Source: a virus. Taken from it: a stretch of 35,447 nt of DNA. This document shows positions 2,024 to 34,843 of this stretch, in pieces (position 1 is the stretch's first letter; the number at the start of each line of letters is the position of its first letter). The position numbers were made by a program, and so were the translations under genes. The DNA lies in IMG/VR virus record IMGVR_UViG_3300032220_000391, positions 1 through 35,447 of that record; one strand, given 5' to 3'. The notes under the pieces are model-generated. The model searched no databases. It had not been told where the DNA came from and saw only the letters and a program-made list of their open reading frames with translations.

Positions 2024-2200
2024 ATGCCAATCAGCAAAAAAGAAAAACACATGATTCAAGATAGTATAGGTAATACAAATATTGAATTAATGCAATTAAC
2101 ACTTAGAGTCGAAAATTTAGAGTTTTTATTTCATGAATTTTTTAAATCACAATCTCCTAAAAAACGTGGTCGTCCTTTAGGTTCAAAGAACAAAAAATGA
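2024..2200 (+). CDS. Small AT-hook-like DNA-binding protein
   Basis: A 58-residue protein. The start at 2024 is chosen over an in-frame ATG at 1970 because AAGGAG lies seven bases before it and the earlier start would overlap the SSB-like gene in another frame. A helical N-terminal part (MPISKKEKHMIQDSIGNTNIELMQL) is followed by a basic tail KKRGRPLGSKNKK. The tail contains the RGRP core of AT-hook motifs, which bind the minor groove of AT-rich DNA. The stop overlaps the start of the cytosine methyltransferase as ATGA, so the two are probably co-translated. Role unknown. Confidence 0.65.
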   Translation: MPISKKEKHMIQDSIGNTNIELMQLTLRVENLEFLFHEFFKSQSPKKRGRPLGSKNKK

Positions 2201-3300
2201 GGTTTATTGAACTCTTTGCAGGCATTGGTGGCTTTCGCCTTGGATTAGAAAGGGCAGGTCATCAATGCGTTTGGGCTAATGAATTTCTTGATAAACCTAG
2301 GAGTATTTATGAATACAACTTTAAACACGCACCTGATGGAAGAGACATCCGAACAGTTCAGCCTGATGAAATCCCCGATGCCGACTTACTCGTTGGAGGA
2401 TTTCCGTGTGCAACTTTTTCGGTTGCTGGCAGACGTACAGGCTTCGGCACAGAAGATACACGAGGTACACTCTTTTTTGAAATCTGCAGACTTATCAGTA
2501 GTAAAAGAATCCCATATGTATTCCTTGAAAATGTTAAGGGACTCCTCAACCACGACGGAGGAAGAACCTTTGGAGTTATCATCGCAAGTTTGGATGAATT
2601 GGGGTATGACATCCAATGGGAATGTGTTAACAGCAAGAATTTCGGAGTCCCACAGAATAGGGAACGAATATTTATTATCGGAAATCTTAGAGGACACCCC
2701 CGACCCGAAGTATTTCCTCTCGGAAAATGCTTTGCAACACATGCTGAAGAGGGTGAAGGTGAACAGGGAGAAAAATCGAGGATTCGACAACCCTATCTAC
2801 CAACGCTCGACGCACACTATAACCAAGTTGGAGGTGGAGGAAGAGCCTACATCGACGAAAACGGAGTTAACGCAGAATCCACAGATGGGGTTGTTCGAGT
2901 AACGCAGTGGCGTAGGTCGTATTTTAGAGACATGAAGGGTGGTCATACGCCAACATTAACAGCTGCCATGGGCACAGGTGGCAATAACGTGCCATATGTT
3001 GCTGTAAAGGCTGTATTGACTCCTGAACGTCATGAAAAAAGACAGAATGGCAGAAGAATTAAAGAAGATGGTGAGCCTTCCTTTACCCTAACCGCACAAG
3101 ATAGACATGGGGTTATGGTTGGCTCTACTTTAAGAAAGCTTACTCCACTCGAATGCGAGCGTTTACAAGGACTTCCTGATGATTGGACTAAGTGGTATAG
3201 CGATGGGTCTTTAGTGCCTGATTCACAGCGTTATGAGCGTTGTGGGAGGGCTGTCACAGTTAATGTAATAGAACAAATAGCAAGGAGATTTCCCATATGA
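2197..3300 (+). CDS. Orphan DNA cytosine-C5 methyltransferase
   Basis: A 367-residue enzyme transferring a methyl group from SAM to cytosine C5 in DNA. Motif I is FIELFAGIGGFRLGLE (residues 3-18); motif IV has the catalytic Cys in GGFPCATFS (Pro70-Cys71); motif VI is ENV (111-113); motif VIII is QNRERIFIIG (Gln153, Arg155, Arg157). The target-recognition region is ~165-310, and motif IX-X is LTPLECERLQGLPDDW, then RYERCGRAVTVNV. The usual motif X GNAV reads GRAV here. No partner restriction nuclease is nearby, so it most likely protects phage DNA from host restriction. The start overlaps the AT-hook gene and the end overlaps the next methyltransferase (ATGA). Confidence 0.93.
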   Translation: MRFIELFAGIGGFRLGLERAGHQCVWANEFLDKPRSIYEYNFKHAPDGRDIRTVQPDEIPDADLLVGGFPCATFSVAGRRTGFGTEDTRGTLFFEICRLISSKRIPYVFLENVKGLLNHDGGRTFGVIIASLDELGYDIQWECVNSKNFGVPQNRERIFIIGNLRGHPRPEVFPLGKCFATHAEEGEGEQGEKSRIRQPYLPTLDAHYNQVGGGGRAYIDENGVNAESTDGVVRVTQWRRSYFRDMKGGHTPTLTAAMGTGGNNVPYVAVKAVLTPERHEKRQNGRRIKEDGEPSFTLTAQDRHGVMVGSTLRKLTPLECERLQGLPDDWTKWYSDGSLVPDSQRYERCGRAVTVNVIEQIARRFPI

Positions 3301-3962
3301 AAGATTGGACATTTAAGAACTTTGCGGATGACTTTGACGGTCATGTCCGTGAGCAGTTACCGTGGTATGACTTAGTGACCGAGGCGGTTGCTTTTATTGC
3401 TAAGAACTACATCCCTCAGGGTGGTAAGGTGTATGACATTGGTTGTTCTACAGGGAATATTACAAAGAAGTTGTTGCCTACAATCATTGAGCGTAAAGCA
3501 ACCATTTGTGGCATAGACAATGAAAAGTCAATGCTTGACAGGTATAAGAAGTCTTTTAAAGACAAAAAACTGCCTGTTTGTGCAAAGGTCAGTGATGCTC
3601 AGCATTACATCTACAGTAACTTTGATGTAGCTATTGTTTTTTTAACAGCGATGTTTATTCCAAAAGAAGAACAAGAGCGACTTTTTTTCAATTTATACCA
3701 ACACATTAATGAGGGTGGTTGCATTATTGTTGTTGATAAAGTCAATGACTCAGGTGGTTATGTAGCTACAGTTCTCAAGCGTTTAGCAATGCATTTTAAG
3801 CTGTTAAATGGAGCAGACTCTGCCGATATTATTGACAAAGAATTAAGATTATCAGGGATTCAACGTCCCATAGATGAGCAAGATTTCAGTGGCAAAGTAA
3901 CACAATTTTTTCAAATGGGTGAATTTAAGGGATGGATAATAGAAAATGATAGCAAAAGATAA
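3297..3962 (+). CDS. Class I SAM-dependent methyltransferase (CmoA-like)
   Basis: A 221-residue Rossmann-fold methyltransferase. The SAM-binding motif I is VYDIGCSTGNIT (residues 45-56), with the following acidic residue in CGIDNEKSML (Asp74). AIVFLTAMFIP and an EGGCIIVVDKVND strand complete the core. The overall pattern (N-terminal FADDFDGHVREQLPWYD, later acidic strand) resembles CmoA, the SAM enzyme of tRNA wobble-uridine modification, but phage relatives may act on other substrates. It is coupled to the cytosine methyltransferase by ATGA and to the nuclease by a 17-base overlap, suggesting a shared DNA-modification or recombination operon. Substrate uncertain. Confidence 0.75.
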   Translation: MKDWTFKNFADDFDGHVREQLPWYDLVTEAVAFIAKNYIPQGGKVYDIGCSTGNITKKLLPTIIERKATICGIDNEKSMLDRYKKSFKDKKLPVCAKVSDAQHYIYSNFDVAIVFLTAMFIPKEEQERLFFNLYQHINEGGCIIVVDKVNDSGGYVATVLKRLAMHFKLLNGADSADIIDKELRLSGIQRPIDEQDFSGKVTQFFQMGEFKGWIIENDSKR

Positions 3963-6553: not shown

Positions 6554-7381
6554 TTAGGGACTGTATGGGGAAGACGCTCCCATAGAGTTATCAGTTTGAC
6601 TACTAGGCTGACCAATAGTTGGGTTTTGCTTGCGTAGGTAGTCATAAAGCATTAATGCGAATGGGGAGGCGAACGCAGCTGTTGCTCCAACCCCTTTTGC
6701 AATTGCTGTTGGTGGGCTAACAGGAGGTAGCATAGAAGCAGCAGAACCTGCAGCACCCATTCCTGCTATTACCGCCCCAGGAATATCACCTTGTTGGGCA
6801 CGATTATAAGACTCTGAGCCTTGTAAAGCACCACCGCCTAGACTCAATGCTCCACCAAGCCTTGGACCTGTTTTTTGACCCATTGCACTACTAACAGAAC
6901 CTAATTTTTGTCCCATCGCCTCTAAAGGAGACAATATCTTTTGCATGATATTTTGTGGTGGTGGCTCAGGTAAGGCTCTCGTAAAGTTAGGAAATTTATT
7001 CCGTAAGTCGGTATTCCTTCTAACCCCTTTAGCAACTTCACTTTGAGCCTCTTGGTAGTTTCTCCAATTAGCTACGCTGTCTTGAACATTAACACCCCTA
7101 GGATTATATGCAGTTTTAGCAGGAGCGGAGCTTGTGGGTGTAAGGGTACTTGCCAACACTCGTTGAGCGGTTGGACCTACTACTGCACCTGCTACTGCGC
7201 CTGCTACAGTAGGTCTAGTTGGGTCAATAATATTAGGCTGACCAAGGGTAACACTACCGCCCTGCACAGGCTCTTCTTTAGTAATTAAACTTGCATAAGG
7301 ATTCTCTTGCTTAACTTCTTCTTCACCCTTACGAACAGGAGCGTCTTCATCAATTAATTTTAGATATGGATTATCAGGCAT
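6554..7381 (-). CDS. Internal/ejection-type virion protein, last late gene
   Basis: A 275-residue protein opening with two copies of an NPYxxLI motif (NPYLKLIDED and NPYASLITKEE, the second near residue 27). A hydrophobic Ala/Gly/Val stretch (TVAGAVAGAVVGP), a Pro-rich middle, and a Gly/Ala-rich C-terminal region with possible membrane segments (GAVIAGMGAAGSAASMLPP; GATAAFASPFALMLYDYLRK) follow. Short NPYxxLI openings and glycine-zipper segments are typical of internal virion proteins of short-tailed phages, which are expelled to form a DNA channel across the host envelope. Function is inferred from composition and from its place after three similar large proteins. Confidence 0.6.
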   Translation of the reverse strand: MPDNPYLKLIDEDAPVRKGEEEVKQENPYASLITKEEPVQGGSVTLGQPNIIDPTRPTVAGAVAGAVVGPTAQRVLASTLTPTSSAPAKTAYNPRGVNVQDSVANWRNYQEAQSEVAKGVRRNTDLRNKFPNFTRALPEPPPQNIMQKILSPLEAMGQKLGSVSSAMGQKTGPRLGGALSLGGGALQGSESYNRAQQGDIPGAVIAGMGAAGSAASMLPPVSPPTAIAKGVGATAAFASPFALMLYDYLRKQNPTIGQPSSQTDNSMGASSPYSP

Positions 7382-9165
7382 TATTTAATCCCCATTCGAC
7401 TAGCAGAAATCTTAGCGGCTTCTTCTACTGCGTCCATATAGTTCTTACGCATTAATTTGGTTTCTTTAGACATAATAAAGTCTGTATAAGATACTGAAGG
7501 ACGACCCTTGTTTAACTCATAATATCGGTTTGCCATATCTTGCTCAAATTGCCCTTGAATCTTTAATCGATTGGCAATGTACTTTAAAAACTCAGCAGAG
7601 TTGGCAGGCGTACCATAGACGCTCTTAACCATCTTATCTTCGTAATTTGATACTGAACCCTTCATTTTCGAGGCTTGTTCAATTGATATTTGGTTTAGTA
7701 AGGATTCAACACGTTGAACCGCAGCTTGTTGTGCAGGGCTTAAATTCTTTCTCAAACTCTCTTCAATCGGAAAGCCTGCTTGAAAGTTACCAACCTTAAT
7801 ACCGTTTTCAAGGAAATTAGCCAAACCCTTAGCCAAGTCTTTATCCCCTCGTAATAAACCAAACGCAGCCTCATTACCTGAAACAGCGTTATATAGTTGA
7901 TTACCAATCAAGGCTTGCTTTTCACCTGCCTCTATCATGTCAGGTATTGCACTCATCCTCTCTTGGATTTTTTCAATATCCTTCTTCATTAAATCTCGTT
8001 TTACTTCTATTGGGAATCCTGCATACTTGTCGGTACTTGCTACTAACACACCTTCTTGTTGTGCAGGCTTACCACCAAGCATGCTCTGTAATGGAGGATA
8101 ATCTAATGGGTTAATTGACTTTCTATCAGGAGTCTTTATACCAATCTCTACATGTGGATTTGTTGACTTACCTGTTGAGCCAAGATTGCCAATAATGTCA
8201 CCTGCCTTAATAACATCCCCATCTTTGACACTTGTCTTATCCAAATGAGCGTAGTAAGAATGATGACCATCATCGTGCTGTACAACCACTGTATTGCCGT
8301 ATTGACCAATAGGTGATGCATTGATAACCGTGCCACCAAAAAGTGCTTTAAGGGGCTCTCCTGCCTTTCCTGCAAGGTCAATTCCATTATGCATTGTTTC
8401 TCTTTTGCTAATGGGGTCAATCCTCATCCCAAATGGGCTAGTAACGGTTAGATTTGAGCCGAGAAGGTTGGTTATTTTGCTAACATCTATTGGCTGATTT
8501 TTAGTTGGCTCTGATGGCTTTTCAGGCTGTGGAGCTGTTGTATTTTTAATCAACGCATCTTTAATATACTGAGGTAAAGTTGCAACAGCCTCATCACCAT
8601 ATTGCGCTCTGAATTTCTGTAAGTCCATGCCCTTACTAACAACGTCCATGAACAACTTATCTCTTTCTGTCTTGAGTTTTTCAGTTTCTACGTTCATCGA
8701 GAACATTTGCTTAACCATCTCAGCACGTTTAGGAGATAGTTGGGCAATTACAGGATAAAGTTCTTGTAAGGTGCTAATTTGGTTTTTATCAATGTTGCCT
8801 TGAGAAAGAGCACTTTCCGCCTCAGTTGGGGATAATCCTAGTTTATTACCAATTAAATCTAAAGCCTTGGCATCATTTTGCATTTCGTATTTTTGACCTG
8901 CAATAGATGCTCGCATTTGTGCTAAAGAAGGGGCTAGTTTTTGTTGCTCAGCCTGTTGTCTACCAAATTCAGATGCACCTGACGCTAAAGCCTCTGACCA
9001 ATGACCTGTTGGCGTAGGCTTACCAAGAGCACCTGCAAGTGAGAATAGGTTAGGCTCGGCTTGTCCTTGTAAAGACTCCATTACCTTGTTTAAAGCATCT
9101 AAATACTCTTTTTGAGCAGATGTATCCCCACCAAATGAGGTTACAGGTACAGTAGGTAGTGCCAT
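7381..9165 (-). CDS. Ejection-type virion protein with M23 peptidase domain
   Basis: A 594-residue protein. Helical, Gln-rich N-terminus (1-205), Pro/Lys linker, LytM/M23 metallopeptidase domain (~235-350), then a long helical C-terminus. M23 landmarks: SPFGMRIDP, HNGID (His259, Asp263), YAHL (His307) and the STGKSTNPHVEIG loop. In standard M23 enzymes the loop is PHLHF, with the second His binding zinc; here His338 is kept but the zinc His is Glu340. The domain probably opens peptidoglycan cross-links during genome entry, if active with a His-Asp-Glu site. The stop abuts the next gene's start at 7381. Confidence 0.8.
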   Translation of the reverse strand: MALPTVPVTSFGGDTSAQKEYLDALNKVMESLQGQAEPNLFSLAGALGKPTPTGHWSEALASGASEFGRQQAEQQKLAPSLAQMRASIAGQKYEMQNDAKALDLIGNKLGLSPTEAESALSQGNIDKNQISTLQELYPVIAQLSPKRAEMVKQMFSMNVETEKLKTERDKLFMDVVSKGMDLQKFRAQYGDEAVATLPQYIKDALIKNTTAPQPEKPSEPTKNQPIDVSKITNLLGSNLTVTSPFGMRIDPISKRETMHNGIDLAGKAGEPLKALFGGTVINASPIGQYGNTVVVQHDDGHHSYYAHLDKTSVKDGDVIKAGDIIGNLGSTGKSTNPHVEIGIKTPDRKSINPLDYPPLQSMLGGKPAQQEGVLVASTDKYAGFPIEVKRDLMKKDIEKIQERMSAIPDMIEAGEKQALIGNQLYNAVSGNEAAFGLLRGDKDLAKGLANFLENGIKVGNFQAGFPIEESLRKNLSPAQQAAVQRVESLLNQISIEQASKMKGSVSNYEDKMVKSVYGTPANSAEFLKYIANRLKIQGQFEQDMANRYYELNKGRPSVSYTDFIMSKETKLMRKNYMDAVEEAAKISASRMGIK

Positions 9166-9199: not shown

Positions 9200-11143
9200 T
9201 TATGCATCTGGGTCGTAATTAGAATAATCATAAACATTTGAATCATTTACATCTGAGCCGTCATCAAATGAAACATTTCCTGGGTTACCACTATTTAATA
9301 AATTTTGTGCCATTCTATCTGCGTCTGTGGCATTTGGGTCAGCATATGCATCATAGTTAGGATTTGGTCTACCATCAGGTAATGTTTTCATACTTGCTGA
9401 AACATCACCTATACTTGTTGAAGTTGTTGTATTGGTGCTTGGATTAGCTGTATAAGTACCGCCTGTGAGTCTTTTTATAAGACTGTCTAATCCGCTATAT
9501 AAATTACCACCTGCGGATTTTCCATCAGCCCCTGGCTTAGCTAATGCACCTAACAATGTGCCGACAGACATAATTTGCTGTAATGGCGATGTTTGGAATT
9601 GTCCCTGTTGTCCTGGCCCTGTTTGCGATGCGCTAACACTAGTAGGTATGGTATATCCTCTGAGTAGAGCAGACTGATTAGCTAACTGTTGCATTGGGAA
9701 TAGCTGTTGATTCTGACCAATTATCTGCTGTTGCTGTCCTAGTGTGGATAGAGCATTAACATCACCTAAGCCTAACTGTTGCGTTGAATTGGCAAGTGTT
9801 CCGAGTTGTTGAGCCGCGGCTATTCTATTTGCCATATCTTGTTGCATAGCCTGCTGTTGTTGTGCTGTCAATCCTAATTCAGCATTAGCAATTACATCAC
9901 CCAAGGCTTGTGCTCCACGCTTAGAGCCAAACTGTCCTGAACCGACAATACCTGCGGTTGCTTGTGGGGCTAAGTTCCTTGCTATGTTCGCCTGTCCAAC
10001 ATCACCAATCGCTTGAGCAAGATTTGTATTGCCTACGCTAGATGCTAAATTAATAGCATTTTGTAGTGTGGGTTGATAGTTACCTACATTCTGTGATGCT
10101 AGATTAAAGGCTTGCTCTTGTAATGGTTGTGCGCCTACATATTGAGCATCCTGAGCTGCCCTACCACCTTGTGTTGCTAACTGATTTAAGTAGTCAGTGT
10201 AGAAAGTAGGAGCAGCGGTTACTTGCTGTTGAGTGGTTGTAACATTTGGAAGTATGCCACCCTGACCAAAAGAACCTGAAGACGCAGACCCAGGAGTTAC
10301 TCCTAAATTAGGCGCAGGCGTAGAGCCTGTGGTTGGTGTTGTAGCATAGGTACTTAAAGGATTAGTAGCCATATTAGTTGTTCCTGTAGGTATTGCTGTT
10401 TGTAAATTGCTAAGTGAGCCTTGTATCATTGTTTGAGGTGGCTGTAACACAGGGCTTGGTTGCTGTGCTTGATTATAAAAAGGCTGTATTAACTGTTGCT
10501 TTGCATCCATAGACAGAGGATTGCCTTGGTCATCTAATACATTTGCATTTTTATAGTAATTAGAATCAAACTCAGGATTTTTCATTGCAGTTTGCACATC
10601 TTGAGCTGTGTAATTTCTTTGAACATAATTAGGGTCAGTTGGCTCTTGTCTAAACATTGCACCTTGACTTGAGCCTTGTTGACCAAACAAATTATCTTGT
10701 GGCTGATACGGCATACTATTTTGTTTATTAATTAAATCTTGTTGCCCTAAATATGAAACATAGTCTTGAGGCGGTGATGGCATCATGTCACGGAATTCGC
10801 CAGTAAAAGGAGCATTTCTATAGCTATCAGCATCTGCATAAAACTTTTTTAAGTAGGCTGTATATTGTGGGTCAGCTTGTCCTGCGTCATCTATTGCTTT
10901 AATTTGCGTGTTTAAATCGCCACCAAAATTGTTTTTGTCATTAAAATAATTAATTCTAGGGTTTGGGCCTACATATTTATAGTCAAGAACTTCTTGCGTA
11001 GCAGGTTGTTGTCCTAGCCCTGAAAATCCTGTATTTTGTGGCATACCTGTCGGCAAAGCACCCTGCTGAGGAGCGGACGCATCATTGCCCATAGTCTGAC
11101 TTGGGTTTACTGATGCGCTTGCAAATGTTGGGTTGAGTGCCAT
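9200..11143 (-). CDS. Large Gln/Asn-rich internal virion protein
   Basis: A 647-residue protein. The first ~330 residues are low-complexity and rich in Gln, Pro, Asn and Thr. Residues ~340-500 are alpha-helical with Ala/Gln heptads (LQNAINLASSVGNTNLAQAI, LTAQQQQAMQQDMANRIAAA) and a conserved-looking GSGQFGSKRGAQALGD. The C-terminus is Ser/Thr/Asp-rich (DDGSDVNDSNVYDYSNYD). GSGQFGS-R-A-AL patterns recur in internal proteins of marine and freshwater short-tailed phages. It is likely part of the ejected DNA-channel complex with its neighbours. No enzyme motif seen. Confidence 0.65.
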   Translation of the reverse strand: MALNPTFASASVNPSQTMGNDASAPQQGALPTGMPQNTGFSGLGQQPATQEVLDYKYVGPNPRINYFNDKNNFGGDLNTQIKAIDDAGQADPQYTAYLKKFYADADSYRNAPFTGEFRDMMPSPPQDYVSYLGQQDLINKQNSMPYQPQDNLFGQQGSSQGAMFRQEPTDPNYVQRNYTAQDVQTAMKNPEFDSNYYKNANVLDDQGNPLSMDAKQQLIQPFYNQAQQPSPVLQPPQTMIQGSLSNLQTAIPTGTTNMATNPLSTYATTPTTGSTPAPNLGVTPGSASSGSFGQGGILPNVTTTQQQVTAAPTFYTDYLNQLATQGGRAAQDAQYVGAQPLQEQAFNLASQNVGNYQPTLQNAINLASSVGNTNLAQAIGDVGQANIARNLAPQATAGIVGSGQFGSKRGAQALGDVIANAELGLTAQQQQAMQQDMANRIAAAQQLGTLANSTQQLGLGDVNALSTLGQQQQIIGQNQQLFPMQQLANQSALLRGYTIPTSVSASQTGPGQQGQFQTSPLQQIMSVGTLLGALAKPGADGKSAGGNLYSGLDSLIKRLTGGTYTANPSTNTTTSTSIGDVSASMKTLPDGRPNPNYDAYADPNATDADRMAQNLLNSGNPGNVSFDDGSDVNDSNVYDYSNYDPDA

Positions 11144-13443: not shown

Positions 13444-13874
13444 TTTTTACCCTTTGCATTCAAATAGGTAATAACCATATAATCGCCTTGTTTAAGGTCA
13501 TCAGATTTTTTAATGTCTTCATTAGGTAATTTATATTTTGTAAGTGTTTTTAATAACGACTTATTAAAATAACAAATTGCCACATCAACATCTTGCTTTT
13601 TCATCAGCGAAAAAAAGACATGACAATTTGTCAGGAATGACTTTAAAGGTTCTGCATTAATTGTGTGATAGTAAATTACAGAACCTACATTTTGGTCAAT
13701 CACAAAAAGTGTATTTCTTACACGAACAATTTGTAAATCATCTTCCATGAATTGTTTAAATAGCCCAATTCCTTGCTCAAGGGTTATTACATTATTATAA
13801 TTTTTTTTAAGGTCTTTTTCTATAATATCAGTAACAGTCATTCTTTTTGATTTAGCTAATTCTAAAGCCATCAT
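13440..13874 (-). CDS. Possible degenerate acetyltransferase-like virion protein
   Basis: A 144-residue protein, starting MM. Either ATG is possible; the second (13871) lies seven bases from AAGGAG and may be better. No certain family. The predicted order is strand (RNTLFVID), strand (GSVIYYHTI), long helix (EPLKSFLTNCHVFFSLMKK), strand plus helix (DVAICYFNKSLLKTLTKYKL) and a final strand (DYMVITYL). This resembles the second half of GNAT folds and the plan of T7 gp13, a small internal virion protein of similar size that also sits between tail and large core proteins. That relation is inference from topology and synteny. It overlaps both neighbours by ATGA. Confidence 0.55.
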   Translation of the reverse strand: MMALELAKSKRMTVTDIIEKDLKKNYNNVITLEQGIGLFKQFMEDDLQIVRVRNTLFVIDQNVGSVIYYHTINAEPLKSFLTNCHVFFSLMKKQDVDVAICYFNKSLLKTLTKYKLPNEDIKKSDDLKQGDYMVITYLNAKGKK

Positions 13875-14569
13875 GCAACTCCTTGCAAGTACATGTCATC
13901 ATTTGTGTGACTAGGATGAAATTTAGGTAGGTATATCTTTAGCATAGGAATTAAGACATTTGTAGTAACAAAAGCACTCCAAACTAACGCATCTTTCCAT
14001 GTACTAATATGCTTAAATTGTCCTTCAGATATTGTCTTTCTGAGCGTGTAGCCTATTAAAAACTTCATCACATAGCGTTGGTTGATAACGGCAATCTTCC
14101 TTAAATCAGCATCTGTATGACCTAAATAACGCCATAAATCAACAGCAAGGCTTTTATGTCCTAACTCTTCTTTAGCATGCCAACAAAATAATTTATAATC
14201 CCTACCCTTACGATGACCCCATCTATTTAATACTGAACGAGACATACAAGACGCTAAGTGTTCTATAGAAACCATAATGCCTAACCAAAATTGCATTTTT
14301 GGCTTGCGATGAATAGCACGAGTACGCTTAAATTCAACTTCCTCTAATTCTTGCAATTGATTTCTTTTATTAAAAGACTCATGTGCAGATGCGTGTGCCA
14401 ACTCTTCTTTCATAAAGTTTACCATGCGAGACTTTAACTCAGCATCATGAACTAATGGTAGATAGTGTTCTATAACGCATGCAAAAGCTCTCTCCCAAGC
14501 AGGGAATAGTATGCTAGATGCGTTGCCATAATGCGTCCAAATAGGGGAGTTATCACACCAATATTTCAT
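13871..14569 (-). CDS. Ferritin-like di-iron 'metal-dependent hydrolase' (PF10118/COG3687 type)
   Basis: A 232-residue, nearly all-helical protein. FPAWERAFACVIEHYLP gives Glu26. FMKEELAHASAHESFN gives Glu56-x-x-His59 and His63. SIEHLASC gives Glu103. WHAKEELGHKSLAVDLW gives Glu135-x-x-His138. The set Glu, ExxH, Glu, ExxH is the di-iron carboxylate arrangement, and spacing and flanking residues follow the PF10118 'predicted metal-dependent hydrolase' family of bacteria. Its substrate is not known; acyl or lipid chemistry is only a possibility. A C-terminal hydrophobic helix (KDALVWSAFVTTNVLIPML) may touch membrane. It lies among virion genes and is coupled to both neighbours by ATGA, so it is probably made late and perhaps packaged. 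Confidence 0.78.
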   Translation of the reverse strand: MKYWCDNSPIWTHYGNASSILFPAWERAFACVIEHYLPLVHDAELKSRMVNFMKEELAHASAHESFNKRNQLQELEEVEFKRTRAIHRKPKMQFWLGIMVSIEHLASCMSRSVLNRWGHRKGRDYKLFCWHAKEELGHKSLAVDLWRYLGHTDADLRKIAVINQRYVMKFLIGYTLRKTISEGQFKHISTWKDALVWSAFVTTNVLIPMLKIYLPKFHPSHTNDDMYLQGVA

Positions 14570-14805
14570 ATATTTCCTATATCCATAATCCCCACTAAAC
14601 TCTTAGCCCAATCCTGCCACGTTTCAAAGTTTCTCGCATCAGGTACACCGCTATTTACAAAGTATCCAATACCTTGCATACCATTAGCCCAATCTCTCCA
14701 TCGCTCTTCAGGAACTGTGCCTAATTCTTGGGCAGCGAATTGTTGTGCCGTAGAAGCGCACCAATAATCCCATGTCATATCCCTAGGGTCAAAAGTAGTC
14801 GTCAT
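14566..14805 (-). CDS. Hypothetical 79-residue late protein
   Basis: A small Trp-rich acidic helical protein (FDPRDMTWDYWCASTAQQFA; GTVPEERWRDWANGMQGIGY; FETWQDWAKSL) with about seven tryptophans. No family recognised. It is joined to the nozzle-like gene upstream by TAATG and to the di-iron protein downstream by ATGA, so it may be a partner of either. No signal peptide or membrane helix. Confidence 0.65.
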   Translation of the reverse strand: MTTTFDPRDMTWDYWCASTAQQFAAQELGTVPEERWRDWANGMQGIGYFVNSGVPDARNFETWQDWAKSLVGIMDIGNI

Positions 14806-16574
14806 TATGGGTTACCTGTACTTCTTTCGTCACCAATATCAGCACTAATTAAGACCTTACCCATCTCGTAGTTGCCGTTAAAGGTGTTGCTCTCAAACTT
14901 CATTCGCAATTCACGACGTTGCTCTCGCATGTCAACTTTTAATGTTGTTGGACTAAAGGTATAAGGCTCAGAGGTGACATCTTCATCATCCGCATAGCCT
15001 TTACCTGTTATATATAAATTCATCTCCCCATCTTGCACAAAATCAGGCTCTACCCTTTCAATCCTTATCCACTTGTTATCGCCCATAACCTGCACATTTC
15101 CTGGCCCGCCTGTTACCCAACCAAGATTGTTTGTCTCAAAATACGATTGCACCGCAGTAACTTGCGTTAAATAAGTCTGATTTACGCCTGTTTCATGCGA
15201 CCACAGCGTGTATTTTCCTTGCGTATTGACTACATTATCAGCCCAAATAGGCTTTCTATATATTTCAGAAAATACGCCTGCAGAACGATTTGCTCCTTCG
15301 GCATAACCTGCGTCATACCAAACTTTATCTCTTACATTATAAATAATGGCATTGTTGCATTCAACAGAATCACCTGATGGATAGAACCACCATATCTCAC
15401 CCCAACGAGGTATCTTAGTGGCCCATACCTTCTGTCTTTGGTTATAGTTTAAGTTATCAAAGAAGAAATTCATATTAGCCATGTTTGGTATTTCTTGTAC
15501 AACACCGTTATACATTAAGAACCTATCAACACCACACCAATAATAAATACCGTCATATTCAATCACACACTGACTTGACATAATCGATGTCTGCGAAGAA
15601 ATAATGTCATACCGCCAATAGATAGTCGATGTGCCTAACTGTTGTGGAGCATAAGTTACTCTTGTTAATTGGTCGGCTGACCAAAATAGTCCTGCAGGTG
15701 ATGTTGTACCACCCCTTAACGCCATTCCTTTGACGATTTTAGTAGCAGATACGTTGTTTTCGTTCGCATCTGCTCCGACCCAATTTTGGAAGTTTCCTGC
15801 CGATGAGTTCTTTATTAAGCCATCATTCCCATAAATGAAAAGGTATGGATATAACATAACAACACCACCTGAAACTGCTAGATTGTTGTCATAAGTCAGT
15901 GTATTTGTCGCTGTAACAGTTGCATTTGCGGACAGAGTAATTGTCGTTGTGCCTGCTGTTTGTGCAATATTTGTTATCGTTGTACTTGATGGAATCCCTG
16001 TTCCTGTGACTTTTTGACCAATACCAACCAATAAATTAGCAGGCGATATAGTAATTGTCGGTGAACCGCTTGTAGTAACGGTAGATGCTGTAAATATCCC
16101 TAATTTGGTCATTGTCCCATAGGGAAAATTACCAATTTGTAAGGTAGTATTAACGGTATTATCAATATTTGTTAGATTCTGCCCTGCATGACCGATTACC
16201 GTTAAATCACCTGAGCCACCGCTATCGTAACCAATCTCCCACTGCCATAAGTTATTAGCATTACTTACAAAACTAGCATCAAGCGTGATTGTTGTTGGAC
16301 CAAATCCTATTGCATTATCGTTGTCAGTCTGCCAAGCCAAAACATCACCGCTTTGCCCTGAATAAACATAATTTAAACCGTTTTGAGACTGCATAACCAT
16401 GCCACGGCTAATGCCTGTAGCATTCAAGAATAAACCTGAATAACCGCCTATCTTACGAGGACGACCACGTTGAAAACGTACCCATTTGCCATCGACATAC
16501 ATCGGTGAATCAAATAGAGTACCATCTCGCTGTATCCCAGGAGGGATTGCTAGAGAGATAACCTTTTGGGTCAA
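14805..16574 (-). CDS. Tail nozzle / P22 gp10-like DNA-stabilisation protein
   Basis: A 589-residue beta-rich protein. Typical opening: IPPGIQRDGTLFDSPMYVDGKWVRFQRGRPRKIGGYSG, shortened here to the IPPGIQRDGT and RFQRGRPRKIGGY parts. The body is propeller-like (NLWQWEIGYDSG; LFWSADQLTRVTYAPQQLG; VCW-type blades such as YYWCGVDRFLMYNGVVQ) and ends IRIERVEPDFVQDGEMNLYI. It resembles the gp10-type proteins that close the lower tail tube of short-tailed phages. Residues ~160-235 (TITISPANLL, then GIGQKVTGTGIPSSTTI) look like a separate Thr-rich beta module inserted between blades, probably a surface or glycan-contact domain. Position after an adaptor and fibre supports a nozzle role. Confidence 0.75.
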   Translation of the reverse strand: MTQKVISLAIPPGIQRDGTLFDSPMYVDGKWVRFQRGRPRKIGGYSGLFLNATGISRGMVMQSQNGLNYVYSGQSGDVLAWQTDNDNAIGFGPTTITLDASFVSNANNLWQWEIGYDSGGSGDLTVIGHAGQNLTNIDNTVNTTLQIGNFPYGTMTKLGIFTASTVTTSGSPTITISPANLLVGIGQKVTGTGIPSSTTITNIAQTAGTTTITLSANATVTATNTLTYDNNLAVSGGVVMLYPYLFIYGNDGLIKNSSAGNFQNWVGADANENNVSATKIVKGMALRGGTTSPAGLFWSADQLTRVTYAPQQLGTSTIYWRYDIISSQTSIMSSQCVIEYDGIYYWCGVDRFLMYNGVVQEIPNMANMNFFFDNLNYNQRQKVWATKIPRWGEIWWFYPSGDSVECNNAIIYNVRDKVWYDAGYAEGANRSAGVFSEIYRKPIWADNVVNTQGKYTLWSHETGVNQTYLTQVTAVQSYFETNNLGWVTGGPGNVQVMGDNKWIRIERVEPDFVQDGEMNLYITGKGYADDEDVTSEPYTFSPTTLKVDMREQRRELRMKFESNTFNGNYEMGKVLISADIGDERSTGNP

Positions 16575-17797
16575 AATCCTCCCCCTTTAATGCCGTTTGT
16601 TGAGTAGAATCCTGTGCTGTCAAAATAACCTGCCAAGGTATTAGCAATAACAAACCCTAGCTTTCCTGAAGTTGGTAAATATAAACCTGTATTTAAGTCA
16701 CCTGAAAACTTGAGCGATGGGACTGCTAAAGAGCCATTGCCTAGCGTAAGCGAAGTTATTGAACTTGCTGAGCCTGAAGCCGCGTTATAGACATTTGTAC
16801 CGTCACAGATAACCACCAAAGAGTCCCCTTGTGGGACAACTACAGTAGCTCCGCCAAAAACGGCTGTTTTAATCGTTAAACTAAACGCCCCTGTAGAGTT
16901 GTTAGTAAAGGTATAAAGCTGTACAGTCGAGGGCACAACAATAATCTGATTACTTGTTAATACGCCTGAATACTCTTGAATAGTGTTAGCAGCTTGTGCA
17001 CTTGTTAAGGTAGTCGTACCACCTGTAATTGTTAACGCTAATTGCGTATAGGCAAAGGAATTGGAGCGTCCTAAGCCAAAGGTATTCCAACCTGTACCAT
17101 TACAAACAATCACTAAGGATTCTGTTAACTGTAGTTGTTGATTAGCGTTACCATCGATTGTGTCTGTTCCTTGCGGAGTGATGGTCAAAATACCTGTGCC
17201 ATTATTGCGAATCATGCAGAACCAATTTTCGCCAACAGAACTTGAAGAAGGTAAGGTTAATGTTCCAACACCACTTGACCATACATTAAATTGCGCTCGT
17301 ACAGAGGATGGAAGGGTTGCACTACCATAGTAGTTAACAACCTCGTAAGATTGATTTAAAGTCGTTCCTATAGCCGTTAAACCGTATCCTGCTAGAGTCG
17401 CTGCGTTTGCTGCTGATGTTCCTGCACCAAATGTTACGGTTGACCAAGTACCCGCCGCGGTTGTGTTACTCGTTGTATAAATATACTGAGCGATACCTGA
17501 TGCGATAGAGACAATCGTCCCACCTGCATAATCTTTAACGGTAAAGGTATTTGCGCCAATATTCCTAATTAATGCTGTTTGTCCAACCGAAACCTGTGTT
17601 GCAGGTGGCATTATCAAGGACAGACTTGCAACTGTTGCGGTTACCTCAATAATGTTTGCAACAACTTGGGTTTGGTCGTTACCGTTGATGGGCCATTGTA
17701 AAGTTGTATCTGCTGATATAGACAGCGATTCGTACCCCACAGGAGATGGGGAAACGGTTTGCCCTGTAAATGGGTTTGTATAGGTAGGATTTGTCAT
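16571..17797 (-). CDS. Tail/collar fibre protein ending in GGGF
   Basis: A 408-residue Ser/Thr/Gly-rich beta-structured protein. Repeated segments of the form LTLPSS-VGENWFCMIRNNGTG, then ILTITPQGTDTIDG and LVIVCNGTGW occur three times (around residues 55, 180 and 290), as in trimeric fibre shafts or adhesin-like modules. A linker GTSAANAATLAGYGLTAIGT (~128-147) is a common phage-fibre element. The C-terminus DSTGFYSTNGIKGGGF shares its last residues with the 806-residue fibre. Lying between adaptor and nozzle genes, it may be attached near the tail base or collar. It overlaps both neighbours by ATGA. Confidence 0.7.
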   Translation of the reverse strand: MTNPTYTNPFTGQTVSPSPVGYESLSISADTTLQWPINGNDQTQVVANIIEVTATVASLSLIMPPATQVSVGQTALIRNIGANTFTVKDYAGGTIVSIASGIAQYIYTTSNTTAAGTWSTVTFGAGTSAANAATLAGYGLTAIGTTLNQSYEVVNYYGSATLPSSVRAQFNVWSSGVGTLTLPSSSSVGENWFCMIRNNGTGILTITPQGTDTIDGNANQQLQLTESLVIVCNGTGWNTFGLGRSNSFAYTQLALTITGGTTTLTSAQAANTIQEYSGVLTSNQIIVVPSTVQLYTFTNNSTGAFSLTIKTAVFGGATVVVPQGDSLVVICDGTNVYNAASGSASSITSLTLGNGSLAVPSLKFSGDLNTGLYLPTSGKLGFVIANTLAGYFDSTGFYSTNGIKGGGF

Positions 17798-18429
17798 GAG
17801 TCAATCGCCATAGCTTGACGGTCAGCAAGGCGTAATTGGTCTTCTTGTTTCAAGACTTGCATTGCTTCCGTATACTTTTGTTGGAAAATCTGTCTTTGGT
17901 CATTTTTTAAGAATGGCATCGCTTGTAGTAATGTTCCATAAAGCATTGCATTCGGAGCATTTTGCGTTATCCAATTCGTTTGATTGGTTGAGGACAGGGG
18001 GGCTAATCTCTCGTAATATAAGACCTCAAAACTATATGCTTGGTCAGGAGTAGGGGCTACGAGCCAATTATCGTAGTTGTAATCAGAGTAATATAAAGGG
18101 GTGCTTGTAGTAGTAGAAGAGGGTGCGTATTGCCTTAAATACTCGTATTTTCTTAATAAAATAGGCTGAATTTGTCCACTTACCGTAACATTCATGGAAA
18201 CTGTTTTACGCCATCTTGCAGGCTTAGGGATTACAGGTTCGCCAATAGTCATCGTAGATTCGACCACTTGTTGTTGACCTAGAGTCTTAATCTGTTCGGC
18301 AATTTCAAACTCCGCTAACATAATGAAGGATGGAATTTGGTTAACAACAGCGGCGTCATTACGCTCTAGATATTGCGTAATATCTGTCGTTAAACTGTCA
18401 TAAGTCATTACTGCCGCAGGAGTTGTCAT
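17794..18429 (-). CDS. Head-tail adaptor-like protein
   Basis: A 211-residue protein. The helical N-terminus (MTYDSLTTDITQYLERNDAA, then IPSFIMLAEFEIAEQIKTLG) is followed by a beta segment (MTIGEPVIPKPARWRKTVSM) and a helical end (APNAMLYGTLLQAMPFLKND, FQQKYTEAMQVLKQEDQLR). This plan matches small adaptor proteins of short-tailed phages that join portal to nozzle (T7 gp11-, P22 gp4- and SU10-adaptor-like). The gene precedes the fibre and nozzle genes, as expected. A 79-base gap without recognisable promoter (18430-18508) separates it from the lysozyme gene. A second adaptor-like gene exists at 27275. Confidence 0.7.
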   Translation of the reverse strand: MTTPAAVMTYDSLTTDITQYLERNDAAVVNQIPSFIMLAEFEIAEQIKTLGQQQVVESTMTIGEPVIPKPARWRKTVSMNVTVSGQIQPILLRKYEYLRQYAPSSTTTSTPLYYSDYNYDNWLVAPTPDQAYSFEVLYYERLAPLSSTNQTNWITQNAPNAMLYGTLLQAMPFLKNDQRQIFQQKYTEAMQVLKQEDQLRLADRQAMAIDS

Positions 18430-20857: not shown

Positions 20858-23800
20858 CTATCTAGATGCAAGTTGTTGTTTAAGTGAATCTACTTCTGCT
20901 TTAAGTTCTTGGATTGATGCCACAAGCAAAGGAATAACATCTGTATAAGAAACACCTAAATATTCCGTTGCATCGTCAGATTTTGGCATTGTTCCTTTTG
21001 TTACTGCTTCAGGCAATACCTTTTCAACGCTTTGTGCAATTAAACCAACACAAGGCTTATTTGATTCATCAGACTTCCATGTAAACTTAACGGCTTCAAG
21101 TTGTGCAACATCATTCAAAGCGTTAGTAAATGTTCCAGTTACATTTTTAAGTCTTGCATCAGAGTTTGCAGTCCAAGATGTTCCGCCATTAGTTAAATAA
21201 ACACCAGCAGAACGATTTTGAATATAAAATCTGTCGTTTGAAGAATACCAAAACATACTTACTTTAACAATTCCAGTTTCAGCAAAATCAATTTCGCTAT
21301 CGCCGCTTATGCTATTTACAGTTGTAGTGCCTGAACTTTTTACATAAATTCTAGGATTACCATCACCATCAGATAACACAATGTTGTTACTTGCTGTACG
21401 GATGTCTAGACCACCTTGATTGCCACCATAAATACCAATAATAGTATTCTTAGAACCAGTAGTAATCGCTGCGCCAGAACCTTGACCTAAAAATGTATTG
21501 TTATTTCCAGTAGTTGCTTGACCAGCCTGACCACCAATAAATGTGCAATAATTTCCTGTGGAAGCGTAGCCAGCTAAATAACCAAAAGAAGTTTGTTGAG
21601 TACCAGTAGTATTGCTATAACCAGCTTGATAACCTACTGCTGTGTTATTAGATGCGGTGGTGTTTCCTGTAAGAGCTTGAACACCAATGGCTGTATTGAA
21701 CGCTCCACTAGCATTACCACTTACACCAGCTAAAGCTGATGTACCAATCGCTGTATTTGACCCGTTAGTTTGCCAAAGTCCAGCATAGTAACCTAGATAA
21801 GTATTGGCGTTATTAGTGACATTCGAGTAACCAGCTTGATAACCAGCATAAAGGTTACTAGTAGCAGTTGTGGTGCTATAACCAGCTTGGTAACCTACTG
21901 CGGTATTGTTAGATGCGGTAGTGTTTGCTTGAAGTGCAGATACACCTATTGCAGTATTTGATGCGCCTGTTGTGTTTGAATATAAAGATTGAAAACCAAA
22001 AGCCGCTACTCCGCTACCTGTTGTATTGGCTAATGCAGCTTGCGCACCTACAGCAGTATTATTGTTTGTGGTATTGGCAAATAAAGCACCTTGACCAAGT
22101 GCAGTATTCTGTACGCCTGTGCTGTTTGAGTAAAGGGCTTGATAACCTAAAGCTGTTTCGTTATATCCTGTTGTATTTGTGTAGGCAGCTTGATAACCTA
22201 CTGCTGTATTACTAGATGCAGAAGTGTTTTTGTTGAGTGCCTGATACCCTACTGCGGTGTTTGAAGCACCACCAAGATTTTCTACCATTGCTTCTGAACC
22301 AAGAGCAGTATTGCCATTTCCCACATTATAGTAAAGCGATAAATGCCCGATAGCAGTATTGTTGGATGTAGTGCTGTTTGCGTTTAAAGAATATGCGCCT
22401 ACGGCAGTATTATAGTTACCTGTGGTGTTTGAATACCCAGCAAAACGACCAATAGCAGTAAGCCTTGTTCCTGTTGTATTGTTATAACCTGCTTGATAAC
22501 CTACTGCGGTATTGTCTGATGCGGTGGTGTTTAAACCTAATGCTTGAAAACCAAATGCAGAGTTATTTGAACCTGTTGTGTTAAATGGTAAAGAATTTTG
22601 ACCAACCGCAGTATTTCCAGTCCCAGTTGTGTTCGCAGTTAAAGCAGTTTGACCAAAGGCAGTTACTTGACCAGTTGTATTTGCTTGACCAGCTTGGTAT
22701 CCTACGGCTGTGTTGTTTGATGCCGTAGTGTTTGATTTTAATGCACTTCTACCAATAGCAAGGTTTTGACCACCAGTAGTGTTGCTGATTAGAGTTTCAT
22801 ACCCACCAATAGCCACATTGTCTGCACCAGTAGTATTAGCAAGTAAAGCCTGATAGCCTATAGCGACTAATTGCCCGCCTGTTGTATTGTTATAACCTGC
22901 TTGATAACCTATCGCAGTATTTAATGAAGCAGTAGTGGTTGAGCCTAATGCCTGATAACCTACAGAAGTATTGTAATTTGCTGTAGTAGCAAACCTCAAA
23001 CTTAGCCCACCAACTGCCACATTATATGAACCTGTTGTGTTAGCGTATAAAGCAAGATTACCTACACCAGCATTTCCTACACCTGTAGTATTGCTAAGTA
23101 CAGCCCTATCTCCAATAGCCGTTAATTCACTTCCTGTCGTATTACTATATCCTGCTTGATAACCTACTGCGGTATTGTTAGAAGCGGTGGTGTTGGATTG
23201 GAGTGCAGACCTACCAATTGCCACATTAGACCCACCAGTTGTATTTGAAGTTAATGCAACGCTACCTACTGCGGTATTGTAATTGCCAGTAGTGTTTGCT
23301 TTTAAGGCTTGGTAACCAACACCAACAATTTCACCCGTTGTATTAAAATATCCAGCTTCAGTTCCTACACCAATGCTGTAACTTCCAGTCGTGTTAGAAA
23401 GTAATGCGGTATAACCAACAGCAACATTATATCCACCGCTAGTGTTTGTATTTAATGCTTGCCGACCAATAGCCGAATTTCCTGTACCAGTAGTATTTTG
23501 TTGTAACGAAACTCTACCAACAGCAGTATTGTGTGAGCCTGAAGTTAAAGCACTTAAAGCACTTGCCCCAACACCTGTGTTTTCTGTTCCTGTAGCTGTT
23601 GCCGCTAAAGCAGATAAACCTAAAGCTGTATTACTAGCAACAGCACCACCACCCCTACCAACAGTAAGACCATAAACAGTTAAGTCAGTACCAGAGTATA
23701 AAAGGTTGGCAGAGTCTGTTAGTAGACCTGCGGTTGTTGCGTATGGAACACGACCACTTGTTAGACTAGAGAATGTAATTGAGCCTGATGATGTCAACCC

Positions 23801-24115
23801 TGTTAGCCCTGTCAGAATACCTGCATCGCTCAAGATGCCTACCGAGTTCTGTATTAGCTTGCCTGTCGTTAAATCAAACCTTGCTAGGGCGTTATCCGTA
23901 GCACTTGCAGGTCCGACTACATCACCTGATGCGCCTGACGTTGATGCGAGCAGAGTGACTACGCCTGAGTTATTCTTGTAGTAGAGCTTGCCGTCGGTGT
24001 AGTTAATAGCTAACTCAGCTCCTGTTGCAGTGCTCGTCATATTAGCAGCTAACGGCACATTGGTAGCCGTTCCGCTTGCGTAAATAAGTATAGGTGTGTA
24101 TCCGCTTTGTGCCAT
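20858..24115 (-). CDS. Giant tail fibre: YadA-like head repeats plus S74 chaperone domain
   Basis: A 1085-residue protein. The N-terminus (1-~150) is a fibre attachment region (LYYKNNSGVVTLLASTSG; GPASATDNALARFD). About 40 repeats of ~20-24 residues with the core NTAVGYQAL/NTAIGxxAL-xxNTTG (~160-900) resemble the left-handed beta-roll of YadA-type trimeric adhesins. The C-terminus is an S74 intramolecular chaperone: NSDARLKNVTG with Ser985 and Lys990, then VGLIAQSVEKVLPEAV and a coiled coil (VIPLLVASIQELKAEVDSLK). S74 domains trimerise the fibre and then cut themselves off before the Ser. It is the most likely receptor-binding protein. AAGGA precedes the ATG. Confidence 0.88.
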   Translation of the reverse strand: MAQSGYTPILIYASGTATNVPLAANMTSTATGAELAINYTDGKLYYKNNSGVVTLLASTSGASGDVVGPASATDNALARFDLTTGKLIQNSVGILSDAGILTGLTGLTSSGSITFSSLTSGRVPYATTAGLLTDSANLLYSGTDLTVYGLTVGRGGGAVASNTALGLSALAATATGTENTGVGASALSALTSGSHNTAVGRVSLQQNTTGTGNSAIGRQALNTNTSGGYNVAVGYTALLSNTTGSYSIGVGTEAGYFNTTGEIVGVGYQALKANTTGNYNTAVGSVALTSNTTGGSNVAIGRSALQSNTTASNNTAVGYQAGYSNTTGSELTAIGDRAVLSNTTGVGNAGVGNLALYANTTGSYNVAVGGLSLRFATTANYNTSVGYQALGSTTTASLNTAIGYQAGYNNTTGGQLVAIGYQALLANTTGADNVAIGGYETLISNTTGGQNLAIGRSALKSNTTASNNTAVGYQAGQANTTGQVTAFGQTALTANTTGTGNTAVGQNSLPFNTTGSNNSAFGFQALGLNTTASDNTAVGYQAGYNNTTGTRLTAIGRFAGYSNTTGNYNTAVGAYSLNANSTTSNNTAIGHLSLYYNVGNGNTALGSEAMVENLGGASNTAVGYQALNKNTSASSNTAVGYQAAYTNTTGYNETALGYQALYSNSTGVQNTALGQGALFANTTNNNTAVGAQAALANTTGSGVAAFGFQSLYSNTTGASNTAIGVSALQANTTASNNTAVGYQAGYSTTTATSNLYAGYQAGYSNVTNNANTYLGYYAGLWQTNGSNTAIGTSALAGVSGNASGAFNTAIGVQALTGNTTASNNTAVGYQAGYSNTTGTQQTSFGYLAGYASTGNYCTFIGGQAGQATTGNNNTFLGQGSGAAITTGSKNTIIGIYGGNQGGLDIRTASNNIVLSDGDGNPRIYVKSSGTTTVNSISGDSEIDFAETGIVKVSMFWYSSNDRFYIQNRSAGVYLTNGGTSWTANSDARLKNVTGTFTNALNDVAQLEAVKFTWKSDESNKPCVGLIAQSVEKVLPEAVTKGTMPKSDDATEYLGVSYTDVIPLLVASIQELKAEVDSLKQQLASR
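21480..23660. repeat. Degenerate tandem repeats inside the fibre gene
   Basis: About 40 imperfect units of roughly 60-72 bases encode the YadA-like repeats. A higher-order copy carrying NTAVGYQAG recurs several times (near 21610, 21830-21900, 22190, 22490, 22690, 22890 and 23160). At the same amino-acid position some copies read ACCAGCTTG and others ACCTGCTTG (plus strand), so the array mixes two synonymous versions. Confidence 0.8.
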
Positions 24116-34420: not shown

Positions 34421-34843
34421 TTAAATAAACGCTTTTATTTCACGAGGGTCACCTGTAACCTTACCAATCAACTCATGGTCGTTAAAGAAGGTAAATAAAG
34501 CCCTTCCCTTAGAGCCATTCTCGTCAGTAAAGTCTATTTCCCAACGGTCACCACCCCATTTAGGGACACGAACATATTCTCCAACTTGTGCCCATGCACC
34601 TTCGGGCCAAGGTTGTTGAGTATCACGGTTACAAAAGGCAATAGGTCCAATAGCAATAACCTTACCAATCATCGTGTTCCACTTCTCTGTTTCCTTTGTT
34701 TCCTCAGGAATATAGATACCTGCACTTGTTACCTTTTCTTTGACAGCTCTAAGTTGTACTAGAACTCTCGCTCCATACGGAGACATTAAAGGGTCAATCT
34801 TTGGAAACGCTTCTGCAAGCGTCTGTTCGATATCATTCGACAT
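34421..34843 (-). CDS. GroES-like co-chaperonin
   Basis: A 140-residue protein. MSPYGARVLVQLRAVKEKVT, then SAGIYIPEETKETEKWNTMI and GKVIAIGPIAF give the Cpn10 plan: beta-barrel strand, mobile loop with a hydrophobic GIYIPE tip (compare GGIVLTG in GroES) and a G-x-V-x-A-x-G strand. VGEYVRVPKWGGDRWEIDF and ALFTFFNDHELIGKV complete the barrel. It probably caps the host GroEL, as T4 gp31 does, to fold the capsid protein. It is longer than bacterial GroES (about 95 residues), with an added N-terminus and barrel insertions. It overlaps the upstream gene by 11 bases and sits immediately before the scaffold gene. Confidence 0.82.
   Translation of the reverse strand: MSNDIEQTLAEAFPKIDPLMSPYGARVLVQLRAVKEKVTSAGIYIPEETKETEKWNTMIGKVIAIGPIAFCNRDTQQPWPEGAWAQVGEYVRVPKWGGDRWEIDFTDENGSKGRALFTFFNDHELIGKVTGDPREIKAFI

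Follow-up and report, generated by a model that had tools for sequence, protein, structure and literature searches.

Within the window, by which we mean the whole 35,447-nucleotide stretch of the viral record analysed here, a series of minus-strand genes encodes putative virion proteins and, among them, a 232-aa protein of the PF10118 family (Table 1). The 589-aa protein matches PHROG 3287 ('virion structural protein') and an INPHARED 'phage stabilization protein' at 63%, while the 765-aa protein has a weak match to 'tape measure' PHROGs in its C-terminal part only. Based on the gp10-like nozzle match and this weak 'tape measure' match, the genes likely form a podovirus ejection cassette. The ejection cassettes of P22 and T7 likewise combine a nozzle, ejection proteins and a peptidoglycan-cleaving component (PMC8954989). 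Unlike here, that review mentions neither a di-iron nor an acyl enzyme for them, and the terms 'acyl' and 'acetyltransferase' are absent from its text.

Table 1. Genes of the putative ejection cassette, with the evidence for each assignment.
Feature	Position	Strand	Evidence
594-aa protein with M23 peptidase domain, putative ejection-type lytic protein	7381..9165	minus	PF01551 E=8.6e-28
Ejection-cassette protein, 647 aa, no assigned family	9200..11143	minus	synteny
Ejection/tape-measure-like protein, 765 aa	11146..13443	minus	phrog_6090 weak C-terminal match; mosaic map
Predicted GNAT-fold protein, 144 aa	13440..13874	minus	constant downstream neighbour; AF2, Foldseek, VIA
PF10118 ferritin-like di-iron enzyme (predicted), 232 aa, start ATG at 14569	13871..14569	minus	Pfam, ligand invariance, dN/dS, AF2 model, fold matches
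Small 79-aa ORF	14566..14805	minus	constant upstream neighbour in one lineage; ATGA overlap with enzyme
Nozzle / P22 gp10-like 'stabilization' protein, 589 aa	14805..16574	minus	phrog_3287 E=4.5e-24; INPHARED
Fibre-like protein	16571..17797	minus	phrog_12796 E=1.1e-15
Head-tail adaptor-like virion protein	17794..18429	minus	phrog_2941 E=7.8e-33

The two immediate neighbours of the 232-aa ORF are less readily classified. The 79-aa ORF matched no family at a useful E-value in Pfam or PHROGs. No Pfam family was found for the 144-aa ORF either, and its probable GNAT identity comes from its predicted fold: the AlphaFold2 (AF2) model (pLDDT 89.8) adopts a GNAT fold, with a best Foldseek match to an acetyltransferase (E 3.8e-4) and Z of ~10 to Ard1/PaiA/RimI. 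The canonical acetyl-CoA P-loop was not seen when the alignment was inspected by eye, making catalysis uncertain. Elsewhere in the window we noted a 1085-aa fibre-like protein with many 'NTAVGYQAG/SNTTG' repeats and a C-terminal S74 endosialidase chaperone domain (20858-24115, minus strand) and, near the capsid genes, a Cpn10/GroES-like co-chaperonin reminiscent of T4 gp31 (34421-34843, minus strand; PF00166 E=6e-8). On the plus strand, a C-5 cytosine DNA methylase (PF00145 E=8e-77) is followed by a SAM methyltransferase (2197-3962), and a 207-aa ORF lies in another frame within the methylase gene (2279-2902).

The PF10118 profile matched the 232-aa ORF with an E-value of 5.9e-36 and a score of 124.9 bits, above the Pfam gathering cut-off of 33.2, and the match pairs residues 2-222 with profile positions 15-246 of 247. 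This near-full-length match bears out the family membership proposed in an earlier sequence-only reading, for which a profile search had been suggested as the check. PF10118 was the sole family returned by the Pfam scan, placing the protein outside the aldehyde-deformylating oxygenase (ADO) profile, and PHROGs and NCBIfam held no matching family. Both ends of the gene form ATGA overlaps, with the upstream 79-aa ORF and with the downstream 144-aa ORF, and the next junctions outward show the same overlap. Translational coupling, which the same reading had asserted, is thus plausible.

In bacteria, PF10118 (Metal_hydrol) carries the name 'predicted metal-dependent hydrolase'. Cellular members and the phage enzyme match the same profile over its full length and have in common the E-ExxH-E-ExxH residue set, the second-sphere residues H63 and H131 and a mostly kept FHP C-terminus. 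Identity between the phage enzyme and the cellular members (and one outlying phage copy, L080) is nonetheless only 16-27%, and in contrast to its cellular relatives the phage enzyme has a short N-terminus (M-KYWCDNS), forms a separate long-branch clade and is located in a virion operon. The 'hydrolase' label derives from the family name alone, and the predicted fold suggests an oxidoreductase.

Conservation is concentrated on the putative metal ligands. Every one of 68 phage copies keeps E26, E56, H59, H63, E103, H131, E135 and H138, and E134 is replaced, by Asp, in a single one of them. When phage and cellular proteins were aligned together (23 sequences, including 14 cellular members from Burkholderiales), P23, E26, F52, E56, H59, H63, E103, H131, E134, E135 and H138 were invariant, so that residues of the metal set are nearly the only invariant positions. 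The gene is under very strong purifying selection, with a median dN/dS of 0.026 over 143 pairs of phage copies. In the AF2 model (pLDDT 92.8, from an alignment of 15 sequences), helices 9-39, 43-69, 93-117 and 123-138 carry E26, E56/H59, E103 and E135/H138, respectively, giving a four-helix bundle with E, ExxH, E and ExxH on successive core helices. The six-residue pattern singled out by the sequence-only reading was therefore found invariant and in ferritin-like order on four separate helices. A structure prediction had also been proposed as a way to see whether the six residues form one metal site; the model supports the ferritin-like fold, and from that fold and the ligand order the six would probably converge on a single site.

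Structural comparisons were consistent with this class. VIA-align returned Z-scores of 11-12 over ~190-210 residues against ADO, CmlI, the methane monooxygenase (MMO) hydroxylase MMOH, R2 and R2lox, values that helical bundles can attain through their common arrangement. The TenA/heme-oxygenase-like fold scored 10.8 over 172 residues, and differences within ~1 count as ties. Foldseek E-values for the model were weak, with a TenA homologue ranked first (E 0.36), and no convincing relative was found among viral models. Searches of solved structures with the sequence, singly and as a profile, returned chance matches only and no solved structure of any PF10118 member. The ferritin-like di-iron oxidases ADO, CmlI/AurF, R2lox, R2 and MMO hydroxylase resemble the phage enzyme in predicted fold and in length, and presumably in ligand order, but share only ~10% identity with it and no profile-level match. 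We also considered a degenerate scaffold in which the ferritin-like fold serves only structure or assembly. The location in a virion cassette would suit such a role, but every ligand is invariant in 68 copies that range over ~39-71% identity to the window copy, and we regard the idea as very improbable.

Further phage records also contained PF10118 matches. An IMG/VR scan with the phage alignment as query identified at least 76 uncultured phage loci with the gene, several of them fragments. Even very different phages have these genes in the same order, namely adaptor, fibre and nozzle, then one or two small or variable genes, enzyme, GNAT-fold gene and ejection-type protein, the part from nozzle to ejection protein being found in nearly all complete loci. 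The position between nozzle-like and ejection-type genes, as read from the window alone, thus recurs in the virion operon of essentially all relatives. Of these genes, the one for the enzyme is in many cases the most conserved; for example, the window and L010 share 65% identity in the enzyme and 26% in the nozzle. Directly 5' of the di-iron gene, two loci (L008 4300-4704 and L009 3066-3470) harbor an extra 134-aa ORF that looks GNAT-like by eye and has no Pfam match.

In a maximum-likelihood tree, 29 phage copies grouped into one clade (support 100/100), which sits on a long branch and is separate from ~50 cellular sequences. With L080 included, the 30 phage rows lie on one side of a branch with support 89/93. 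L080 itself (861-1442) branches between the cellular and phage clades and does not occupy the usual slot; it may be an intermediate or have been captured separately. The single deep, long-branch clade indicates an old phage gene rather than a recent acquisition from a host. Recent capture is also countered by a Limnohabitans MAG that has a separate, 25% identical cellular copy. Of the INPHARED records with PF10118 matches we opened two, and both look like bacterial DNA. In H1 the match is in an unannotated stretch past the annotated attR. H8 is a contig of Acinetobacter on which trp, fol and acc genes occur, and all other matching records are more contigs from the same Acinetobacter assemblies. 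Among these examined matches, no cultured phage was shown to carry the gene. The opened 254-kb contig of 'Acinetobacter phage MD-2021a' (CAKLQH/CAKLQF), with trp, folC and accD, is a bacterial chromosome deposited as phage.

Close relatives revealed how the gene moves. Over 5.9 kb, ending five bases inside the enzyme start, the window is 93.5% identical to L086; L086 has no enzyme, and strong similarity to the window returns in the ejection protein, within its C-terminal part. According to the mosaic map, the exchanged block comprises the enzyme, the GNAT-fold gene and the N-terminal part of the 765-aa ejection protein. Conversely, the nozzles of L019 and L021 are unrelated (27%), yet the two loci have in common a 93% identical block that begins exactly at the first base of the enzyme and extends through the GNAT-fold gene. 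Breakpoints of exchange thus fall at the enzyme start codon. In a third pair, L040 and L066, most of the sequence on either flank is ~90-98% identical, whereas identity within the enzyme gene is 47-72%. The notion that enzyme and GNAT-fold gene always move together was therefore partly rejected: it is true of L019/L021 and of window/L086, but L040 and L066 differ in the enzyme alone. Co-evolution with the nozzle was likewise rejected as a description, since enzyme and nozzle identity showed no relationship (rho 0.006 over 1003 pairs, which are non-independent and serve as description only).

These patterns bear on the proposal, also made from the window alone, that the enzyme is packaged or injected. 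It could be built into the particle alongside the ejection proteins and so reach the next host, there altering the envelope or shielding the entering DNA. Its constant placement between nozzle and ejection protein is in keeping with this, as is the window/L086 block that reaches into the ejection protein. On the other hand, the gene is optional (L086, with 93.5% identical flanks), is swapped alone in L040/L066, does not track the nozzle and is replaced elsewhere by diverged alleles or by other genes (see below), so that an accessory enzyme synthesized late, within the infected cell, fits better than a virion component. Packaging, although possible, was thus left unsupported, and we consider it unlikely.

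We then turned to what sister phages harbor at this position. Among the best nozzle matches examined were phages with related nozzles that lack PF10118. Three of these (L086, L087 and L093) have only the GNAT-like ORF in the slot and neither enzyme module, and others have an ORF resembling acyl carrier protein (ACP) followed by a ketoacyl synthase (KS). A search with the synthase recovered 66 loci in the order nozzle, small ORF, ACP, KS, GNAT-like ORF and ejection protein. The KS belongs to PF02801 (E=1.4e-15), the Pfam match of the ACP is sub-threshold, and the KS cysteine, both its histidine motifs and the ACP serine (DSL/DSM) are kept wherever the loci cover them. Examples of the pair, with its short KS, are L119 (5334-6703), L166 (10252-11630) and L199-L264. 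The two modules were found together in 0 of ~150 loci. In profile searches of whole contigs, a KS domain was detected in 0/17 contigs with PF10118, and PF10118 in 0/20 contigs with KS or with neither module. The di-iron enzyme and the ACP-KS pair are thus mutually exclusive in the sampled contigs.

Phage-borne acpP and fabF are already known from Rhodobacteraceae prophages, whose fab-like auxiliary metabolic genes lie in the order fabG-acpP-fabF (PMC8224337). The slot resembles those modules in joining an ACP to a ketoacyl synthase and differs from them in that no third fab-type gene was seen and in its ejection-cassette position, where it alternates with PF10118. Given such precedents, and the modular exchange described above, the enzyme gene might be no more than an auxiliary metabolic gene that occupies a permissive insertion point, its alternation with ACP-KS being coincidental. 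However, a deep single phage clade with a dN/dS of 0.026 does not look like a recent host acquisition. A general insertion hotspot also has little support: 81 proteins encoded in the slot region of 35+ further related phages contained almost no other metabolic Pfam domains, which argues that this is not an all-purpose insertion site. We judge the hitchhiker explanation unlikely, to about the same degree as packaging. Overall, the single phage clade, the low dN/dS, the alternation in the slot and the exchange breakpoints identify the di-iron gene as an old, strongly selected and exchangeable accessory enzyme and not a fixed part of the virion.

What such an enzyme might do is suggested by its fold class, by the genes with which it alternates in the slot and by the neighbourhoods of cellular PF10118 genes. 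The latter contain genes for SDR, TetR, FAD/FMN oxidoreductase, thioesterase, wax-ester synthase and cyclopropane synthase (CMAS), a mixed set with one or a few cases per gene type and no control set. From these we infer, with about an even chance of being right, a di-iron oxidoreductase that depends on O2 and acts late, within the producing cell, on a substrate of acyl or lipid type; the metal, the O2 chemistry, the substrate and the site of action are all part of that inference. In this scheme a ferritin-like, carboxylate-bridged di-iron protein would be synthesized late from the virion operon through translational coupling with its neighbours, filling an exchangeable slot directly 5' of the GNAT-fold gene that in sister phages holds ACP and KS or is empty. 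It would act as an oxygenase, hydroxylase or desaturase rather than a hydrolase, on a fatty-acyl group that belongs to the envelope or is borne by a phage protein. Its product may end up in the envelope, on a virion protein or as a small molecule. Acyl or lipid chemistry is favoured by context, although the ACP-KS pair may share with the enzyme only its insertion site. Of the lipid- or envelope-modifying activity delivered with the genome that the sequence-only reading had envisaged, the chemistry is thus favoured by the ACP-KS slot and the cellular neighbours, and the delivery is not.

One special case of this late oxidoreductase is superinfection exclusion or receptor modification, in which a late change to lipid A or to membrane acyl groups would block sister phages or free the progeny from debris. 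A late operon and gene-level turnover among near-identical phages are reminiscent of exclusion cassettes, and acyl-type alternatives occupy the same slot; the acyl route is, however, itself conjectural, and we hold this version to be somewhat unlikely. More speculatively, the slot could provide interchangeable acyl chemistry, with either the di-iron oxygenase or ACP-KS supplying or tailoring an acyl group that the GNAT-fold protein places on the ejection protein or on the envelope being crossed. We think this rather improbable; if true, acylation would tune genome delivery to the host membrane.

Accessory enzymes carried by phages are a known kind. Cyanophage lipid desaturases, reportedly described by Roitman et al. 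in 2018 (cited in PMC8224337), are phage-encoded iron enzymes that act on lipids, as proposed here, but they are of the membrane histidine-box type, with a different fold, and are not known to lie in a virion cassette. PF10118 in phages and an ejection-cassette slot alternating between a di-iron enzyme and ACP-KS are apparently new, as we found no paper on either in a search that covered only a minority of subscription journals. The papers searched included no characterised PF10118 member and a single PF10118 paper, on Streptomyces, in agreement with the earlier statement that the family has no described role in phage particles and with the lack of a PHROG match.

PF10118 is a family without known function, and here it is strongly selected, in a simple system and in a fixed slot that it shares by turns with ACP and KS. 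The slot therefore gives a concrete handle on the function of PF10118 enzymes, and natural pairs of nearly identical phages, one with the gene and one lacking it, offer a clean comparison. The ACP-KS pair, which occupies this cassette position in 66 loci, merits separate study. A question is also raised that we found no paper asking, namely whether acyl or oxidative chemistry takes part in making or delivering tailed-phage particles. In summary, the swappable enzyme slot suggests that infection by freshwater-type phages, or their exit from cells, involves a chemical step that has so far gone unrecognised.
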